Assembly (NCBI RefSeq): GCF_022760955.1
Contig: NZ_JAKTNU010000003.1
Span: forward strand, 62,001 to 126,000
Reading direction: 5' to 3'
Length of the DNA stretch: 64,000 bases
From: Thermus neutrinimicus
GTDB lineage: Bacteria; Deinococcota; Deinococci; Deinococcales; Thermaceae
A program made the translations under genes and the position numbers. Within the stretch, counting starts at the first letter, position 1, and the number at the start of each line of letters is the position of its first letter. Below the pieces are notes generated by a model. It did no database searches, was not told the DNA's origin, and worked only from the letters and a program-made list of their open reading frames with translations. Shown piece after piece: positions 10,008 through 18,102 of this stretch.

Positions 10008-10074
10008 AATGGGGCCACCGGCGGGACATGATACCACGTGGGGGTGTTGACAGGAGGGAGAGATAGGCCTAAGG

Positions 10075-10103
10075 TTGAAAATATGCGACTTTATTCATAT
10101 AGC
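10075..10103 (+). promoter_or_regulatory. Candidate promoter/operator of the arsR-ehr-like operon
   Basis: TTGAAA (10075-10080), 17 bases, TATAGC (10098-10103). Between and over these lies an inverted repeat ATATG (10081-10085), 10 bases, CATAT (10096-10100). The region is AT-rich compared with its surroundings. Such a repeat across the -10 is where ArsR/SmtB repressors usually bind, so autoregulation by the next gene is likely but inferred. Confidence 0.5.
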
Positions 10104-10116
10104 CAAAGGAGGATGT

Positions 10117-10446
10117 ATGCCTAGCGCCCTCCACCGCTATAAGGCGGAGTTCTTCAAGGCCCTGGGTCATCCTCTGCGCCTGGCTATCCTGGATGCCCTG
10201 CGGAGGGGAGAGCGGTCGGTTTCCGCCCTGCAACGGGAGCTCGGGGTGGAACAGTCGGTGCTTTCAAGGCAGCTTTCCTTACTGCGGGAACGAGGGTTGG
10301 TGGAAGCCAGGAGGGAAGGGCAGATGGTCTACTACCGCACCCGGGATCCCGAGGTCTATGCCTTTTTGGACCTGGGGCGGCGGATCTTCGAACGCCACCT
10401 CGAGGCGGAGCGGGAGCGCTTGGACGCCCTTAGGGAGGAGGAATGA
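10117..10446 (+). CDS. ArsR/SmtB-type winged-helix regulator
   Basis: 109 residues. FFKALGHPLRLAILDALRRG is the ArsR-family start, VSALQRELGVEQSVLSRQLS the recognition helix-turn-helix, and LVEARREGQMVYYRTRD the wing. There is no cysteine, so it lacks a metal-thiolate site of the classical As/Cd/Pb type. A long C-terminal helix (about 80-105) could bind another ligand or dimerise. AAAGGAGG precedes the ATG at 10117. The stop overlaps the next start (ATGA), tying its expression to the hydrogenase-like genes and suggesting it controls them. Confidence 0.88.
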   Translation: MPSALHRYKAEFFKALGHPLRLAILDALRRGERSVSALQRELGVEQSVLSRQLSLLRERGLVEARREGQMVYYRTRDPEVYAFLDLGRRIFERHLEAERERLDALREEE

Positions 10447-12098
10447 GCCCCCTTTGGACCTTCTTGCCCCTGGGTTTGGCCGTGGTGTCCGCTGGGACTC
10501 CCTGGCGTTTCCGGGGGCTTTCCCTCTCCGTGGGTTTGGCGGGCCTTGCGTGGGTGGCGTTGGGGGGGATGGGTTGGGCTTCGGGATGGGGCGCTCCCTA
10601 CCTCTACCTGCTCCTCCTCGGGGCTTTGACCTTGGGCCTTGCCCCCTACCTTCCTGCCTACTTGGCCCTTCACCCCCGTGAGGCGCACCTCTATGCCCTT
10701 CTCATTCCCCTTTTCTTGGCTAGCATGGCGGGGGTGGCCTTGACCTCCCCCGGGTTTGGCTTCCTCTTTTTGTGGGAGGGCATGGCCCTTTTGGGCTATT
10801 TTCTGATCGCCCTCGAGGGGCCAAACGCCCTGGCAGGGGCCCGGGCCTTTTTCCTGGCGAGCCGCCTTTCGGGGGCTGGGCTTTACCTGGCCTTTCTGGG
10901 ACACGCGCACCTTGGGGCCGATTGGGTGTGGGCTGGGCTTCTTTTGGGCTTTGGGGTGAAGGCGGCCCTCTTCCCCTTCCACACCTGGTTGCCCCAGGCC
11001 CACCCGGTGGCCATCAGCCCGGTTTCGGCCCTGCTTTCTGGGGCCATGACCAAGCTGGGCCTTCTCGGCTTGTACCAGTCCCAGCACTGGTTCGGCCCAC
11101 CCCCACCTTGGGTGGGGTGGGTTTTGCTCCTCCTGGGCCTTTCAGGTGCGGTGTATGCCTTGGTGCGGGGCCTGGGGGAGGAGGATCTTAAGGGGGCATT
11201 GGCCTACTCCAGCGTGGAAAACCTGGGCCTCATGCTTTCCGCCTTGGGGGCCTATTTTCTGAAACCCATACCCCTGCTCCTGGGGGCCTTCTTCCTTCAC
11301 CAGGTGGCCCACGCCCTGTTCAAAGGGCTCCTTTTCCTGGGGGCAGGTACCTTGGCAGAGCGGCGGATTTCCCATCTGGGCGGGCTTTTCCGCAAGGCCC
11401 CTGAGCTTGGAGCCCTTGCCTTGTGGGGGATGGTGGCAGGGGCAGGCCTCCCTCCTGGCCCGGTTTTTCTTGCGGAGTGGCAGCTTTACCAAGGCTTGCT
11501 GCAAGGGCCTTTCCTTGTTCCCTTGGCCGCCGGAGCCTTGGCCTTGGTGGGGGCCTTGGCCCTGTATTTTTACGTGCGCCTTTTCGGGTTGGCCTTTTTG
11601 GGCCTGCCTCGAGGCGAGGTGGAAGTGTACCGGAGCCAGGGTATGCACCTGGGTCTTGGGGTTTTGGCGGGGCTCCTCCTCCTATTAGCCTTGGCGCCCG
11701 GACTGGTCCTGGAGCCCCTTGGGGTTCGCACCTACCCTAACTGGGTTCTCCTTACTCTTCTTGGGGTTCTGGCTGGGGCGTTTTACCGGGGCCTTCTCCG
11801 GAGGCCCATGCGGGTATACGGAACCTGGGACTGCGGTTTCCACCCCCTCACCCCTAGAATGCAACCTAACGGCCTGGGCTTCGCCGAACCGGCCCTTCGC
11901 CTTTTCCCGTTCCTTCGCCTCCAGGTGGGGGAGCGTCCCCATCTGGAGGAACCCTTGGCCGAGGTATATCCCGGAATGGGGCACCTCTACGCCCGCCTTG
12001 CAGCCTTGGTGCAAACCCTGCAGTCGGGAAGCCTGCACCTTTACCTTCTCCTGCAGCTCCTCACCTTAGTGGTGGTTCTGGGGGTGGTCTTGCTATGA
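10443..12098 (+). CDS. HyfB/HycC-like membrane antiporter-type subunit
   Basis: 551 residues, almost entirely transmembrane (about 14-15 segments). It belongs to the NuoL/M/N-Mrp antiporter superfamily: FLFLWEGMALLGYFLIALEG carries the conserved Glu in helix 5, GFGVKAALFPFHTWLPQAHPVAISPVSALLSG the helix 7-8 Lys and broken-helix motif, and AYSSVENLGLM and LFKGLLFLGAGT the later conserved helices. A long C-terminal portion (TWDCGFHPLTPRMQP) is as in HyfB/HycC of formate hydrogenlyases. Proton- or sodium-pumping residues look intact. It is the first of six overlapping structural genes. Confidence 0.88.
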   Translation: MSPLWTFLPLGLAVVSAGTPWRFRGLSLSVGLAGLAWVALGGMGWASGWGAPYLYLLLLGALTLGLAPYLPAYLALHPREAHLYALLIPLFLASMAGVALTSPGFGFLFLWEGMALLGYFLIALEGPNALAGARAFFLASRLSGAGLYLAFLGHAHLGADWVWAGLLLGFGVKAALFPFHTWLPQAHPVAISPVSALLSGAMTKLGLLGLYQSQHWFGPPPPWVGWVLLLLGLSGAVYALVRGLGEEDLKGALAYSSVENLGLMLSALGAYFLKPIPLLLGAFFLHQVAHALFKGLLFLGAGTLAERRISHLGGLFRKAPELGALALWGMVAGAGLPPGPVFLAEWQLYQGLLQGPFLVPLAAGALALVGALALYFYVRLFGLAFLGLPRGEVEVYRSQGMHLGLGVLAGLLLLLALAPGLVLEPLGVRTYPNWVLLTLLGVLAGAFYRGLLRRPMRVYGTWDCGFHPLTPRMQPNGLGFAEPALRLFPFLRLQVGERPHLEEPLAEVYPGMGHLYARLAALVQTLQSGSLHLYLLLQLLTLVVVLGVVLL

Positions 12099-12949
12099 CA
12101 GCGGCCTTGGCCTTATTGTTGGCTCCGCTTTTTTCGGGAAGCGTCAAGTGGTTAAAGGCGCGGCTTACCCAACGGCAGGGGCTTAGCCCTTTAATGGAGT
12201 ACCGGAACCTGGCCAAGCTTTGGCGCAAGGTCTGGATAAGGCCCCATACCACCACCCCCGTTTTCCTCCTCGGGCCCATCCTGGCCCTTTTGGGAACCGT
12301 GGGGGCTTTGGTCCTGTTGCCTGTCCTCCCCGGGCCGGCCTTCAAGGGGGACTTCCTCCTCGCCCTTTACCTCCTTGGCCTCGGGCGTTTTTTTCAAATG
12401 CTGGCGGCCCTAGATGCGGGCAGCAGTTTTGGAGCCCAGGGAAGTTACCGGGAAGGTGTGGTCACGGTGTTGGCGGAGCCTGGGACCCTTATGGCCATAG
12501 CGGGGGCAATCCTCTTGGGGGACGGGTTTTCCCTTAGCGGTTTACCCGAGCTTGGGGTGGAAAACAGCTTGGTGCTGTTGCTGGCCCTGGCTTCCCTTGC
12601 CCTGGCCCTCCTGGCTGAGGGAGCCAGGATGCCGGTGGATGATCCCACCACCCACCTGGAGCTCACCATGGTCCACGAGGCGCAGGTGCTGGACCACAGC
12701 GGGCCTCTTTTGGCCCTGTATGAGCTTGCAGGGTCGCTCAAGATGCTGTTCTATGCGGGCCTGATGGCCTTGTTGCTGCCGGGGTTCAAGCCCCTGGTCT
12801 TCCTGGGGGTGGTGGTGGCCTGGGTCTTGGCGTTGGCCTACCTGGAGACCTACGGGGTAAAGCTCCGCTATCTGAGGCTTCCCGACTTCCTTTCGTACAA
12901 TACCCTTTTCGGGGTGCTGGCGCTTCTGGGGGCGGTATGGCGCTTCTAA
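12095..12949 (+). CDS. HyfC/HycD-like (NuoH family) membrane subunit
   Basis: 284 residues, about eight membrane segments. It is the homologue of NuoH, the subunit that joins membrane and peripheral arms in complex I and membrane-bound hydrogenases. GPLLQ-type N-terminal features are reduced to LMEYRNLAKLWRK. The key cytoplasmic loop EGARMPVDDPTTHLELTMVHEAQVLDHSG is well preserved and is characteristic of HyfC/HycD. The start overlaps the previous stop by four bases (ATGA). Confidence 0.88.
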   Translation: MTAALALLLAPLFSGSVKWLKARLTQRQGLSPLMEYRNLAKLWRKVWIRPHTTTPVFLLGPILALLGTVGALVLLPVLPGPAFKGDFLLALYLLGLGRFFQMLAALDAGSSFGAQGSYREGVVTVLAEPGTLMAIAGAILLGDGFSLSGLPELGVENSLVLLLALASLALALLAEGARMPVDDPTTHLELTMVHEAQVLDHSGPLLALYELAGSLKMLFYAGLMALLLPGFKPLVFLGVVVAWVLALAYLETYGVKLRYLRLPDFLSYNTLFGVLALLGAVWRF

Positions 12950-13569
12950 ACACCTTGGTCCTGGCGATCCTGTCCACAGGTTTCTTGATGGTGAGCCGCC
13001 GTAGCCTGGACGCCATCATTCGGCTCTACGCCCTGCAGAACATCCTCTTGGCCCTGGTTTCCTTTGGGCTTGCTGGGGGAGAGCTGCACTTCGTGTTGGC
13101 CGGTCTGGCCCTCTTCGCGGTTAAGGGGGTGCTCATACCCTGGTATCTGTTTTGGCTTATAGATCGCCTCGAGGTGAGCCACGAGGTGGAGGGGTACCTG
13201 TCCGTTTCCCTCTCCCTCCTTTTGGCGGGGCTTCTGACCGCCTTAGCCTTCCGGGTGGGGGAGGCCTTTGTCCTTCCCGAGGCTCCCTTGCCCCAAGGGG
13301 TGCCCGTGGCCCTGTCCTTGGTGCTTCTGGGAGTCCTTTCCATGGTGAGCCGCAAGAAGGCGATAAGCCAGGTTCTGGGCTTCCTAGCGCTGGAGAACGG
13401 GGTTTTCCTCATGGCCCTTTCCGAAAGCCACGGCTTGCCCCTCTTCGTGGAGTTGGGGGTGGCCTTGGATGCCTTCGCCGCCGTGTTCCTGGCGGGGATC
13501 CTCATCTTCCGCATCAAGGGGGAAATGGGGCATGTGGATACCGCGCGGATGCGCTCACTAAGGGGGTAA
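12937..13569 (+). CDS. HyfE-like membrane subunit (NuoK-related)
   Basis: 210 residues with six to seven hydrophobic helices. LYALQNILLALVSFGLAG and ISQVLGFLALENGVFLMALS are two NuoK-like halves, the second with the conserved Glu in the membrane, as in HyfE. The final cytoplasmic tail is short and charged (RIKGEMGHVDTARMRSLRG). It overlaps the HyfC-like gene by 13 bases and the HyfF-like gene by one base, so the operon is translationally coupled. Confidence 0.85.
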   Translation: MALLNTLVLAILSTGFLMVSRRSLDAIIRLYALQNILLALVSFGLAGGELHFVLAGLALFAVKGVLIPWYLFWLIDRLEVSHEVEGYLSVSLSLLLAGLLTALAFRVGEAFVLPEAPLPQGVPVALSLVLLGVLSMVSRKKAISQVLGFLALENGVFLMALSESHGLPLFVELGVALDAFAAVFLAGILIFRIKGEMGHVDTARMRSLRG

Positions 13570-14918
13570 TGGTGCTGTATCTTCTCGTCCTCTTACCCTT
13601 GGGGGTCTTCCTGGCCCGCAAGGAGGCCAGCCTGTTGGTGCGGCTTTCCGTTTTCGTGCCCCTCCTCAGCTTCCTTCTGGCCCCTTTCCTCCTGGGTGCG
13701 GCAGCCGGGCCTTTCCGGCTGGATGGGGTGGGGCTCTTCTATCTCCTTCTGACCGACCTGATCTACGCCCTGGTGGCGCTTTTTGCCCGGGGCTACTTTG
13801 CCCGGGAGGAGGCCTGGCGGTTCTACTGGGCGGGTGCCCTTTTCCTGGCCTCGGCCCATGGGGCGTACCTGGCCCACAATCTGGGCATGCTCTGGGTTTT
13901 CGTGGAGGGTAGCACCCTGGCCTCGGCCCTTCTGGTCTACCACAAAGGGGGGGCCCGGCCCCTCGAGGCCACCTGGAAATACCTCATGCTGGGCAGCGTG
14001 GGGATCGCCATGGGGCTCATCGGGGTCATCCTGGTCTACGCCCTGGTGGGCGGGGCCACCCTGGACTGGGGGGAGGTCCGGTCCCTGGTGGGAGAGGCCA
14101 ACCCTGAGGGGCTCAAGGTGGCCTTCGCCCTCCTCTTGGTGGGCTTTGGGACCAAGGTGGGGCTTTTCCCCTTGCAGGCGTGGCTCCCTGATGCCCACGC
14201 CGAGGCCCCGGGGCCGGCCTCGGCTTTGCTTTCGGGAACCCTCCTCAACGTGGCCTTTTACGCCCTTCTCCGCTACGCCGCCATCATGCAGGCGGCGGGG
14301 CTCTTCCCCTTTTCTTCGAGCCTTTTCCTAACCTTCGGCCTGCTTACCCTTTTGTTTGCGGCTCTTTTCCTCTTTGGACAAAAAGAGTACAAGAGACTTC
14401 TCGCCTACTCCAGCATGGAGCACATGGGCCTAGCGGTCTTCGCCTTGGGTTTGGGACTGCCCTGGCTGGCCCTTTTCCATACCCTGGCGCACTCCGTGGC
14501 CAAGACCTTGGCCTTTCTGGCGGCCAGCGGTATCCTGTCTGTCACGCACGCCAAGGAGGTGGGGCGGGTAGGCGGGCTGGTCTTCCACCTCCCGGCTTTG
14601 GGGATCCCCTACGTCCTAGCCTTGGCGGCCTTGGGGGGCCTGCCTCCTTTTCCCCTCTTCTTCGCCGAGTTCAAGGCGGTGGAGGCGGCCATGCGCTGGC
14701 CTGGGCTGGCGGGGCTCTACCTTTTTGGCCTGGGTATGGCGTTTGCTGGCCTCCTTTCTCCCATGGCCCAGATGGGCTTCGGTAAGGGGAAGCCCCTTAG
14801 GGGACAGGGCCTGGACCTCTGGATTCTGTGGTTGCTCTTGGGCATCCTGGTGATCCTCGGCGTGTTCCCGGGGATGGAGGTGTTTAAGGGATTGGAGGTG
14901 GTGCTGTGGGGAAAGTGA
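13569..14918 (+). CDS. HyfF-like membrane antiporter-type subunit
   Basis: 449 residues, a second NuoL/M-N family protein with about 13 helices. LGMLWVFVEGSTLASALLVYH includes the helix 5 Glu, GFGTKVGLFPLQAWLPDAHAEAPGPASALLSG the Lys and proline-rich segments, and AYSSMEHMGLAVFALGLG the helix 8-9 motif, matching HyfF/NuoN-like subunits. The ATG at 13569 shares its A with the TAA of the HyfE-like gene; the frame is also open far upstream, but that part lies inside hyfE. Two such antiporter subunits suggest more than one translocation site. Confidence 0.88.
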   Translation: MVLYLLVLLPLGVFLARKEASLLVRLSVFVPLLSFLLAPFLLGAAAGPFRLDGVGLFYLLLTDLIYALVALFARGYFAREEAWRFYWAGALFLASAHGAYLAHNLGMLWVFVEGSTLASALLVYHKGGARPLEATWKYLMLGSVGIAMGLIGVILVYALVGGATLDWGEVRSLVGEANPEGLKVAFALLLVGFGTKVGLFPLQAWLPDAHAEAPGPASALLSGTLLNVAFYALLRYAAIMQAAGLFPFSSSLFLTFGLLTLLFAALFLFGQKEYKRLLAYSSMEHMGLAVFALGLGLPWLALFHTLAHSVAKTLAFLAASGILSVTHAKEVGRVGGLVFHLPALGIPYVLALAALGGLPPFPLFFAEFKAVEAAMRWPGLAGLYLFGLGMAFAGLLSPMAQMGFGKGKPLRGQGLDLWILWLLLGILVILGVFPGMEVFKGLEVVLWGK

Positions 14919-16237
14919 GGGAGGCCCTGCGCGAGGGAAGGCCTGTGGCGCTTTTCCCTTATGGGGACCGGGTGGTTTTGTGGGTGGAGTACCCGGGGGG
15001 CGAGAAGGGGGTTTTAGGCCCCACCCAGGCCTTTTTCTTGGGAGAGAGGAGGCGCTTTCCCAGTCTGGCCGCCGAGTTTCCCGCTCTGGATTGGTTTGAG
15101 CGGGCCCTTTGGGAGAGGGGTTTTGAGCCGGTGGGGCACCCCGGGTTGAAACCCCTCAGGCGGCACGATCTTCCCCACACCTTCCGGGAGTTTCCCCACC
15201 TCCACGAGGTGCCTGTGGGACCGGTGCACGCGGGGATCATCGAACCCGGGCACTTCCGGTTTAGCGTTTTGGGCGAGCGGATCGTGAACCTGGAAATCCG
15301 CCTGGGTTACCAGCACCGGGGCCTGCTTTCCCTCATGCCGGGCAAAGGGGCTGAGGCCGCGCTCCTTCTGGTGGAGCGGGCGGGGATTGAGCCCGTAGCC
15401 CACGCCATGGCCTTTGCCGAGGCCTGGGAAAGGGCCTTGGGGTGGGGGGCTCCTCCTAGGGCGCAGTACCTTCGCCGGGCAGCCCTGGAGTTGGAGCGGG
15501 CCTTTGGTCATCTGGGACACCTGGCTGGGCTCTTCACCGACATCGGCTACGCCTACGGGGCCACCCAGGTGGGGCGGATCCGGGCTCTTTTGCAGGGGGA
15601 ACTGGACCGGCTAACCGGCCACCGCTACGGGAGAAACTTCATAAGGGTTGGGGGGGTGTGGCGGGAGGGCCAGCCGGACCTCGAGGTCATCGCCGCCCAT
15701 CGGGAGGAGCTGGCCCGCCTATTGCCCAGGCTTCTCAAAAATCCCCAGGTACTGGACCGTATGCGTTATGTGGGGGAGGTGCGCCGGGCTGAGGCCTTGG
15801 CCTTGGGTTTTGTGGGCCCGACGGCCCGGGCCAGCGGGGTGGGGAGGGACCTCAGGCAGGACGACCCCCTTTACCCCGGGTTTACTCCCGTGGTGCGCCA
15901 GGGGGGGGATGTGCTGTCCCGGGCGCAGGTGTATGCCGAGGAGGGCCTTAAGGCCCTGGAGTATGCTCTTTTCTTCCTTCGCCATCTTCCCGCAGGGCCT
16001 TTGGCCCTGGATCCCCCACCGGGAGAGGGCGAGGCCTTGGCCCGGGTGGAGGCAGGAAGGGGTGAGGTGGTGTGGTTTGTCCGGGTGGAGGCTGGGAGGG
16101 TGGTCGTGGCCGAAGGGGTGGACCCAAGCTTCAAGAACTGGCGGGCTTTGGAGCTTGCGGTCCGGGGGGAGGGTTTGCCAGACTTCCCCCTTTGCAACAA
16201 GTCCTTTGACCTCGCCTATGCGGGAAGTGACCTTTAG
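14906..16237 (+). CDS. HyfG/HycE-like large subunit lacking all NiFe cysteine ligands
   Basis: 443 residues. A short NuoC-like N-terminal region (1-95) precedes a NuoD/hydrogenase-large-subunit domain. GPVHAGIIEPGHFRFSVLGE and NLEIRLGYQHRG place it in the HycE/EchE family. Where hydrogenases have the first NiFe motif (ERxCGxC then an AH pair), this protein reads VERAGIEPVAHAMAF at about residue 156. Where they end DPCxxC, it reads SFDLAYAGSDL. The only cysteine in the protein is C430, outside both motifs. It therefore cannot bind a NiFe centre. This matches the group known as energy-converting hydrogenase-related (Ehr) complexes. No hydrogenase maturation genes are nearby. Confidence 0.88.
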   Translation: MGKVREALREGRPVALFPYGDRVVLWVEYPGGEKGVLGPTQAFFLGERRRFPSLAAEFPALDWFERALWERGFEPVGHPGLKPLRRHDLPHTFREFPHLHEVPVGPVHAGIIEPGHFRFSVLGERIVNLEIRLGYQHRGLLSLMPGKGAEAALLLVERAGIEPVAHAMAFAEAWERALGWGAPPRAQYLRRAALELERAFGHLGHLAGLFTDIGYAYGATQVGRIRALLQGELDRLTGHRYGRNFIRVGGVWREGQPDLEVIAAHREELARLLPRLLKNPQVLDRMRYVGEVRRAEALALGFVGPTARASGVGRDLRQDDPLYPGFTPVVRQGGDVLSRAQVYAEEGLKALEYALFFLRHLPAGPLALDPPPGEGEALARVEAGRGEVVWFVRVEAGRVVVAEGVDPSFKNWRALELAVRGEGLPDFPLCNKSFDLAYAGSDL

Positions 16238-16245
16238 GGGATGCC

Positions 16246-17034
16246 ATGAGCTTGCTGTACACGCTTAAGGTGGGAAATTTGGCCCGCAAGCTGGAGGATA
16301 TCCTTAAAGTTCCCCAGCACGCTTTCGGCTACCCTTTGCTGAAGCCGGAGGGCTTGACCCCGGGGGTTCGAGAGGGGCTAATGCGACTTTGCCCGAGCGG
16401 GGCTTTTGCGGAGGCAGAAGGGATTTTCAGCCTGGACCTCGCCCGGTGCGTGGGGTGTGGGCGGTGCGCCTTGGCGTACCCTCTAGGGGTGGGGGAGATG
16501 AGGTCCCTCGAGGTGGCCGTAACCCGCAAGGAGGACCTGGTTCAGCAGGTCGATCTAGAAAGGGGAGGGTTTTTGGACCCAGGCCCTGCCCCCGCTCCCC
16601 GGCGAGAGCTTCGCTTACCCACCCTAGCCTTTCGCGAGGTGAGCGCCGGGGACACGGGCCTTACCGATTCGGAGATTGCCCTTCTTAACAACCCATTTAA
16701 CGACATGGGCCGCTTTGGGTTCCAGGTGGTGGCTTCGCCCCGGCACGCCGACGCTCTTCTGGTCACGGGTCCGGTGAGCCGCAACATGGCCGAGGCCCTA
16801 AGGCGCACTTACGAGGCCATGCCAGAGCCGAAAGGGGTGGTAGCGGTGGGCAACGAGGCCATCTCGGGTGGGGTGTTTGCAGGAAGTTCCCAGGTTTTGG
16901 CCGGCGTGGACAAGGTGGTGCCTGTGGACGTGTACGTGCCTGGGGATCCACCAAGGCCCGGAGCCATCCTCCACGCCTTGATGCTTTTGGTGGGCCGCAT
17001 GACCCAGCGGCTGGTAGGGGGGGTTTTGCGTTAA
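16246..17034 (+). CDS. Fused ferredoxin / HyfI-NuoB-like small subunit lacking proximal-cluster cysteines
   Basis: 262 residues. Residues about 25-90 form a reduced bacterial ferredoxin domain with LCPSGA (C49) and CVGCGRC (C68, C71, C74). The first three cysteines of motif 1 are absent and the last of motif 2 is Tyr, leaving exactly one potential [4Fe-4S] site. Residues about 125-262 are NuoB/HyfI-like: DMGRFGFQVVASPRHADALLVTGPV and PVDVYVPGDPP. The four N2/proximal-cluster cysteines are replaced: CxxC region by TGLTD, GxC by GNE, and PGCPP by PGDPP. The gene begins 8 bases after the large subunit. Confidence 0.88.
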   Translation: MSLLYTLKVGNLARKLEDILKVPQHAFGYPLLKPEGLTPGVREGLMRLCPSGAFAEAEGIFSLDLARCVGCGRCALAYPLGVGEMRSLEVAVTRKEDLVQQVDLERGGFLDPGPAPAPRRELRLPTLAFREVSAGDTGLTDSEIALLNNPFNDMGRFGFQVVASPRHADALLVTGPVSRNMAEALRRTYEAMPEPKGVVAVGNEAISGGVFAGSSQVLAGVDKVVPVDVYVPGDPPRPGAILHALMLLVGRMTQRLVGGVLR

Positions 17035-17043
17035 GCTCTTGCC

Positions 17044-18102
17044 ATGGACTGGCTCCTCACCCCGGGTCCTGTGCGGCTTCATCCCAAGGCGCTGGAAGCC
17101 CTTTCCCATCCGCAGCTTCACCATCGGACCGAGCCCGCCAAGGCGCTTTTCCTCAAGGCCCGAGGCCTTCTTCGGGAAGCCTTCCGCACACAAGGCGAGG
17201 TCCTCATCCTCACGGGAAGCGGCACCCTGGCCATGGAAGCCTTGGTGTGGAATCTCTTCTCCCCTGGGGAAAGGGTGTTGGTACCGGTCTACGGCAAGTT
17301 TTCCGAGCGCTTCGCCGAGATTGCGGAAAGCGCGGGCCTCCAGGTGGACCGGCTGGAGCTTCCCTACGGGGAGGTGCCAAGCCCGGACCAGGTGGCCAGG
17401 CCCGGTTACCATGGGTTGCTTTTGGTTCACTCGGAGACCTCCACGGGGGCCATGGTGGATCTTCCCAGCCTGGCGCGGGCCTTCAAGGAGGTAAACCCCG
17501 GGGGGCTGGTGGGAGCCGACATGGTGACGAGCCTTTTGGTGCGGGAGGTGGCCCTCGAGGCCTGGGGTGTGGACGCCGCCGTTTCCGGTAGCCAAAAGGG
17601 GCTCATGTGCCCCCCGGGGCTGGGCTTCGTGGCCCTAAGCCCCGGAGCCCTGGAACGCCTGCGGCCCCGAGGCTACTACCTGAACCTTTCCCGGGAGCTC
17701 AAGGCCCAGCGGGAAGGGGAAAGCGCCTGGACCCCGGCCATCAACCTGGTGGGGGCGGTGGCGGCGGTGCTGGAGGAGGTGTTGCCCAAGCTTCCCCAAC
17801 ACCTGGCCCTCAAGGCCTGGCAGAACGACCTTCTGTATCGGGTGGGAGCGGAGCTTTGGCTAGGTCCTGTGCCCAAGGTCCCAAGTCCGGCGGTGGCGGC
17901 CTTTTACCTGCCCGAGGGGGTTTCCTACCGGGCGGTGAAGGAGGCCTTTGCCCGCAGGCAGGCGGTGATCGCCGGGGGTCAGGGGCCTTTGAAGGGCAGG
18001 GTGTTCCGGCTTTCCCTCATGGGTTATTACGACCGCTACGAGGCCCTGGGGGTGGCGGCCCTTTTCAGGGAAGCTTTTGCCGATATTCTTCCAGCCTCCT
18101 GA
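17044..18102 (+). CDS. Class V PLP-dependent aminotransferase
   Basis: 352 residues. LLTPGPVRLHP opens the alanine-glyoxylate/serine-pyruvate aminotransferase subgroup, ILTGSGTLAMEALVWNL binds the cofactor phosphate, GLVGADMVTSLL supplies the Asp that contacts the pyridine nitrogen, and SGSQKGLMCPPGLGF contains the Schiff-base Lys. The substrate cannot be read from sequence; serine-glyoxylate, alanine-glyoxylate or phosphoserine are all possible. It starts 9 bases after the hydrogenase-like small subunit, so it is probably the last gene of that operon. Some members are labelled soluble hydrogenase subunit in databases, which I treat as a misnomer. Confidence 0.88.
   Translation: MDWLLTPGPVRLHPKALEALSHPQLHHRTEPAKALFLKARGLLREAFRTQGEVLILTGSGTLAMEALVWNLFSPGERVLVPVYGKFSERFAEIAESAGLQVDRLELPYGEVPSPDQVARPGYHGLLLVHSETSTGAMVDLPSLARAFKEVNPGGLVGADMVTSLLVREVALEAWGVDAAVSGSQKGLMCPPGLGFVALSPGALERLRPRGYYLNLSRELKAQREGESAWTPAINLVGAVAAVLEEVLPKLPQHLALKAWQNDLLYRVGAELWLGPVPKVPSPAVAAFYLPEGVSYRAVKEAFARRQAVIAGGQGPLKGRVFRLSLMGYYDRYEALGVAALFREAFADILPAS

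Follow-up and report, generated by a model that had tools for sequence, protein, structure and literature searches.

Energy-converting hydrogenase-related (Ehr) complexes are known as a class, and their reaction is not established (PMC6349859; PMC10284858; PMC10432482; PMC6728331), as a sequence-only reading of the DNA studied here had also stated. Two further papers likewise describe a known class of unknown function (PMC4378227; PMC6147122). The hyc genes of the M. tuberculosis Rv0081-Rv0087 locus, with the regulator Rv0081, have been related to Ehr (PMC6728331). In the hydrogenase HycE, Glu193 is a proton-exchanging carboxylate near the Ni site (PMC9474812).

The window analysed here is a stretch of 64,000 nucleotides from Thermus neutrinimicus. 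Judged by its genes, the complex encoded at 10117-17034 is a member of the Ehr class. It shares with other Ehr complexes the HyfB-C-E-F membrane set, whose Hyf-type genes (antiporter-like and HyfE-like) stand in the same operon as those for NuoB- and NuoD-like proteins, and its NuoC/D-like large subunit, homologous to those of group 4 hydrogenases, lacks both NiFe CxxC motifs. As far as the sequences tell, it is an Ehr variant that has lost both the NiFe site and the adjoining proximal [4Fe-4S] cluster and has kept its ion-transport part intact.

The cassette and its membrane arm

The sequence-only reading had correctly assigned four membrane partners to the large subunit; small-subunit and ArsR genes belong to the same operon. 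The locus contains the following features.

10047-10052, forward strand: promoter-like TTGACA, read directly
10070-10075, forward strand: promoter-like TAAGGT, read directly
10081-10100, forward strand: operator-like inverted repeat ATATG-N10-CATAT just before the ArsR start, read directly
10117-10446, forward strand: regulator of the ArsR/SmtB family, 109 aa, the cassette's first gene (PF01022, NF033788)
10443-12098, forward strand: HyfB/HycC-like antiporter-type subunit (B), 551 aa (PF00361; 7z0s_C, HycC)
12095-12949, forward strand: HyfC/HycD/NuoH-like subunit (C), 284 aa (PF00146; 7z0s_D, HycD)
12937-13569, forward strand: HyfE-like subunit (E), 210 aa (PRK11492 match)
13569-14918, forward strand: HyfF-like antiporter-type subunit (F), about 450 aa (PF00361), starting at GTG 13566 or ATG 13569
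14906-16237, forward strand: NuoC/D-, HycE- and HyfG-like large subunit (L), 443 aa, GTG start
16246-17034, forward strand: small subunit (S), with an N-terminal ferredoxin-like domain and a C-terminal NuoB/HycG fold (PF01058)
17044-18102, forward strand: class V aminotransferase, a neighbour outside the cassette 9 bp downstream of S (PF00266)

The gene order ArsR-HyfB-HyfC-HyfE-HyfF-L-S is intact in 16 of 16 orthologous loci. Flanking genes differ in five of them and the cassette is whole in all five; it therefore behaves as one seven-gene module. The aminotransferase adjoins the cassette in 11 of the 16 loci and was rejected as a member of it, since it is missing beside relocated copies. The neighbouring ABC ATPase and MscL genes do not travel with the cassette in these loci either. 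Among 78 Ehr loci, no redox-enzyme family recurs beside Ehr in at least four. An HTH_17 plus PTS_EIIA_2 gene lies near HyfB, mostly directly upstream, in 20 of the 78 (e.g. L022:3953-4651 and L033:4030-4701), and is possibly a regulator tying Ehr to PTS/Ntr signalling and ion homeostasis.

ArsR stands upstream in all 16 cassettes; the protein as started at 10117 contains no Cys. Among solved structures, its nearest match is Rv0081 of M. tuberculosis (6jmi, E 1e-17). The Rv0081-Rv0087 locus likewise has an ArsR regulator followed by Hyf/Hyc-like genes. The two loci differ in the position of the small-subunit gene, which in M. tuberculosis, as Rv0082, stands ahead of the membrane genes. An ATATG-N10-CATAT-type repeat precedes ArsR in most of the 16 cassettes and is degenerate in the non-Thermus copies, and TTGAC recurs at about -70 upstream of ArsR in the Thermus cassettes; a generic sigma-70 scan gave nothing above threshold. 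The inverted repeat would fit the expected autoregulation.

In the membrane arm, B, C, E and F keep the Ehr-conserved ionizable residues with four exceptions (A33 and Q212 in B, N38 in C, Q205 in F), and every channel Lys and Glu is present, which bears out the earlier claim that the four membrane partners are intact. These channel residues include E112, K173, K204, K294 and E345 in B, and E115, K198, K314 and others in F; C retains R119, E120, E128, E175, D182, H187, E189 and E195. Position 205 of F is His in other Ehr and Gln in 10 of 17 Thermaceae. The sole NCBIfam match of the HyfE-like subunit is the hydrogenase 4 membrane subunit PRK11492, at 84.9 bits and under the cut-off. The proton-path residues of the arm are largely intact. 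B and F, as antiporter-type subunits with Lys/Glu channel residues, resemble those of Mrp antiporters. However, Mrp has a full subunit set (MrpB and others) and no NuoB/NuoD-type head, whereas the Thermus complex retains a conserved head, and MnhB was not found anywhere in the host genome. A search for Mrp replacing Ehr in the Thermus genomes that lack Ehr gave no clear pattern.

Orthologues occur in 14 of 27 Thermus genomes (counting the host) and in two other Thermaceae genera, represented by three genomes; 18 Thermaceae copies from these 17 genomes were compared. For ArsR and all six structural genes, pairwise dN/dS lies at 0.03-0.28 (16 comparisons), which indicates purifying selection and rules out a pseudogene. 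In one relative, near-identical duplicates of the Ehr large and small subunit genes (L017 and L019, G033:C2) lie about 230 kb apart on one contig.

The large subunit and its former NiFe site

The two former metal sites of L are located as follows.

15380-15391, forward strand: first NiFe CxxC site, residues 159-162 (A-G-I-E), with a deletion of one residue just before
16214-16225, forward strand: C-terminal NiFe CxxC site, residues 437-440 (A-Y-A-G), after N431-K432-S433

L, whose start overlaps the preceding HyfF-like gene by 13 bp, matches HycE of E. coli formate hydrogenlyase first in a sequence search of solved structures (E 3e-38), then MbhL and Nqo4. The structure prediction that the sequence-only reading had proposed is confident (pLDDT 92), and the model follows HycE end to end, the NuoC-like N-terminal domain included (Z 41.3, 2.0 Å, 430 residues), so the description of L as HycE-type holds for sequence and model. 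Two stretches of low confidence, 108-113 (the beta1-beta2 loop) and 440-443 (the C-terminus), both line the former active site. Fold searches with the L and S models gave HycE, HycG and complex I subunits, and both subunits are predicted to fold normally.

Alignment with HycE and other relatives leaves L without any NiFe ligand, and the C-terminal maturation extension is missing too. At the first site ER-AGIEPVAH stands against DRVCGICGFAH in HycE, and at the last DLAYAGSDL against DPCYSCTD, in agreement with the motifs reported earlier (ERAGIEPVAH and DLAYAG). The ligands are missing in 18 of 18 Thermaceae copies. C430, already noted as the sole cysteine of L, aligns with Ile in HycE, and its position is Ile in 4 of the 18 copies (those of the non-Thermus genomes); C430 is therefore no displaced NiFe ligand. 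The earlier reading had also allowed that cysteines might have shifted nearby or that a sequencing error hid the CxxC motifs. No NiFe-site cysteine has moved to a neighbouring position in the Thermaceae copies (a Cys one residue off, in SYCG, occurs in 47 of 78 other Ehr proteins), and the agreement of 18 copies from 17 genomes rules out sequencing error or frameshift.

Group 4 [NiFe] hydrogenases have four NiFe Cys ligands and Hyp maturation. HypD was found neither in the host (genome completeness 99.97%) nor in any Ehr-carrying Thermus genome searched, and the single Thermus genome with HypD has no Ehr. With the ligands missing as well, the claim that L cannot be a NiFe hydrogenase stands. 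A decaying, non-functional hydrogenase operon would have lost every hydrogenase cofactor ligand, as seen here, but the genes are all under purifying selection, the cassette is whole in 16 loci and the new pocket residues are invariant, which makes decay very improbable. Neither decay nor sequencing error explains the ligand loss, given the agreeing copies, the selection and the absence of HypD.

In a family scan with one genome per species (84,980 species), 80 loci were kept, at ~33-42% identity, and the NiFe ligands are missing in 78 of them. A quick tree of L sets 96 Ehr rows apart from L089/L098, HycE and MbhL with support 95 and places the Thermaceae as one clade on a long branch. The first site reads AG[SG]E in Thermaceae and [AS]GDT, mostly [AS]GD[TNS], in other Ehr; Thermaceae L thus differs from most relatives by its deletion and by AGxEPVAH in place of [AS]GDTxxxH. 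The last-site motif in other Ehr is mostly NKSFxLSYxGxDL, and five residues (N431, K432, S433, Y438 and D442) do not vary among the 96 Ehr proteins compared. The two loci that keep NiFe motifs (CGVC and CYSC), L089 and L098, encode NiFe large subunits of group 4 that have the NKSF motif of Ehr and sit beside all Ehr in the tree. They are candidates for a NiFe-bearing sister of Ehr, and the shared motif suggests that NKSF predates the loss of NiFe.

The HycE Glu193 equivalent is kept in L as E113, and the equivalent of the adjacent HycE Asp192 is I112. In complex I, H38 and Y87 of Nqo4 are quinone-site residues; their positions in L are I112 and G160. L and S share the folds of Nqo4 and Nqo6, but the quinone-site His/Tyr and the N2 ligands are gone, and the host encodes a separate complex I (L002). 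E. coli formate hydrogenlyase and hydrogenase-4 (HycE/HyfG) offer the closest fold over the whole of L and the same membrane subunit types, whereas the Thermus cassette has no NiFe site, no proximal cluster and no FdhF, HycB or HycF genes. Sulfane sulfur reductase MBS (6u8y) also has Glu for the second NiFe Cys (E162 here), with Pro adjacent. MBS catalysis requires the proximal cluster, and in MBS/MBX the proximal [4Fe-4S] is the catalytic or terminal site; in contrast, it is absent in the Thermaceae complex.

The small subunit and the proximal cluster

Two groups of positions in S bear on its cofactors.

16390-16467, forward strand: remaining Fe-S site, C49 and C68xxC71xxC74, present in 18 of 18 Thermaceae
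16654-16947, forward strand: former proximal (N2-position) [4Fe-4S] ligand sites, where T137, T140, E204 and D234 replace four Cys

The S model has a mean pLDDT of 94 and HycG as closest fold (Z ~20), with the N-terminal ferredoxin-like part barely probed by the fold search; the C-terminal domain aligns well with MbhJ and HycG. Among 74 other Ehr small subunits aligned with S, 67-69 retain Cys at each proximal site. The cluster is a common, though not a defining, feature of Ehr. Its ligands are gone in 18 of 18 Thermaceae copies, which have T; T, A or D; E; and D or S at the four sites; this loss, the key point of the locus, had escaped the sequence-only reading. Thermaceae S has also lost the second cluster of the ferredoxin domain, and the remaining C49, C68, C71 and C74 are enough for one [4Fe-4S]. 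Cysteines number one in B, none in C, E and F, one in L and four in S, six in total. By this count the six structural proteins could possibly hold one ferredoxin-type site and none at the catalytic interface, and the invariance of the four S cysteines in Thermaceae suggests some redox or structural role. Seven other Ehr small subunits (L020, L021, L030, L037, L050, L058 and L059) keep the proximal cluster and have lost the ferredoxin-domain cysteines, the reverse of the Thermus pattern. In the Ehr papers cited above, which do not include the founding one (Marreiros et al. 2013, pmid 23000657), we found no description of small subunits lacking the proximal cluster.

The same sites have changed elsewhere in the family. 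They read D, A/T, D, N in 17 of 17 Methanoregulaceae genomes, with the same pattern in a Dehalococcoidales relative, and D, C, D, N in 14 of 14 Bacteroidales. Within one family of Verrucomicrobia, all four Cys are present in most members; the sites read S, E, E, W in L091 and L174, and D, A, C, W in L161. In Methanoregula, S lacks a ferredoxin domain and the six-gene operon has unrelated neighbours, so no cofactor site is recognisable there. A single clade of all cluster-less rows was rejected (AU p=6e-6), and Methanoregula with Bacteroidales was marginal (p 0.053). Four fully independent losses are unsupported, as the likelihood improved when Thermus and Methanoregula were constrained to group (AU p 0.82). 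Glu at the second NiFe-Cys site (E162) is shared by 18/18 Thermaceae and 3/3 Methanoregula and occurs in 1/75 other Ehr. With the joint tree kept and E162 shared, Thermus and Methanoregula may have one origin. The trees thus point to at least two, probably three, origins of the loss.

Asp, Glu or Asn occupies 7 of 11 substituted proximal sites in three lineages (expectation 0.096 for each site, binomial 2e-5) and 10 of 15 in four lineages (chance 1e-7), under a simple BLOSUM62-based replacement model, in a test chosen once the pattern had been noticed. From a Cys codon, Asp and Asn each need two nucleotide changes and Glu three. One explanation is that a hard metal ion (Mg2+, Ca2+, Na+ or Zn2+) replaces the [4Fe-4S] cluster at the proximal site, held by the O-donors D/E/N/T, with binding as the catalytic or gating event. 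The enrichment, with each such residue at least two changes from Cys, would speak for this. However, T and T/A/D stand at two of the four sites in Thermaceae and W at one site in Verrucomicrobia, the test was picked post hoc and two of the lineages may share their origin; we give such a metal site a low probability. A broader proposal is that the complex I superfamily has a redox-free branch, where the N2-position [4Fe-4S] site would have been rebuilt convergently as a carboxylate/amide site in at least two, probably three, lineages, and ligand or cation binding there, not electron transfer, would work (or be driven by) the membrane pump. We regard this as possible but rather unlikely.

Possible modes of action

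The alignments describe a complex under selection with a complete membrane arm, but without the set of ligands that an electron path to the former active site would need. The sequence-only reading held that ion transport must be coupled to some other reaction. If a redox reaction in the pocket was meant, this is unsupported: the proximal [4Fe-4S] feeding the pocket is also missing, which makes redox chemistry at the old active site unlikely, so that a non-redox role (ion exchange or ligand gating) should be considered first. Our tentative reading, held with a little less than even confidence, is a Mrp-like complex, stripped of cofactors, that translocates ions and whose redox-inert head is possibly gated by a ligand or cation. 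In this proposal, the complex would move H+ and/or Na+/K+ across the membrane in the manner of Mrp antiporters, with no electron transfer through the L/S interface. The former hydrogenase head would serve as a gate or sensor. A ligand or cation would bind the remodelled L/S pocket (N431-K432-S433-Y438-D442, E113 and H166 of L; T137, E204 and D234 of S), and the signal would reach the membrane arm through the loops that in complex I relay changes driven by redox chemistry. The one Fe-S cluster left would have a structural role or sense redox state or oxygen, rather than act as a wire, and the cassette would be switched by its own ArsR repressor. We know of no transport assay for any Ehr.

The main rival to a redox-free transporter is redox chemistry through the ferredoxin-type cluster, which would take electrons and hand them to a partner protein or to an acceptor bound close to the old pocket, driving ion pumping as proposed for other Ehr. 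The invariance of C49, C68, C71 and C74 in 18/18 copies is consistent with it, as are the proximal cluster and ferredoxin domain kept in most Ehr and the hypothesised FDH-Ehr link (PMC6349859). A redox partner is possibly encoded elsewhere, which counts against the redox-free reading. However, the relay is interrupted by the loss of the proximal cluster and one ferredoxin cluster (neighbouring clusters in FHL are under 14 Å apart; PMC9474812), the cassette has no partner gene, and the Methanoregula relatives have neither a ferredoxin domain nor a recognisable cluster site. On balance we judge a redox enzyme unlikely.

A non-redox catalytic reaction is also possible, as the pocket residues appear to be conserved as strongly as in an enzyme. 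Such an enzyme coupled to ion flow might convert or transport CO2/bicarbonate. DAB is a precedent, in which a DabB-type NuoL relative works with DabA. The invariant pocket agrees with this, and Ehr has SulP permease genes nearby in 4 of 78 loci (L028, L030, L050 and L096) and a beta-carbonic-anhydrase-like gene in two (L050:14616-15203 and L052:3829-4530), in one beside an ArsR gene. However, about 5 of 78 loci is a weak association, the Thermus cassette holds neither a SulP nor a carbonic anhydrase gene, and beta-carbonic anhydrase is in none of the 23 Thermus genomes searched (G000-G022). We judge such a non-redox enzyme improbable, and the redox-inert, gated transporter remains the reading that we tentatively prefer.

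A central open question of complex I is how antiporter-like channels are driven by electron transfer in the far-off N2/quinone region. Here, an electron-driven pumping machine may now work without that electron path. A natural, selected complex that has head and pump, but no N2-position cluster or known acceptor site, would directly test where the coupling depends on redox chemistry and where it does not. Ehr, found in M. tuberculosis, methanogens and nitrifiers, would gain a concrete and testable functional hypothesis.
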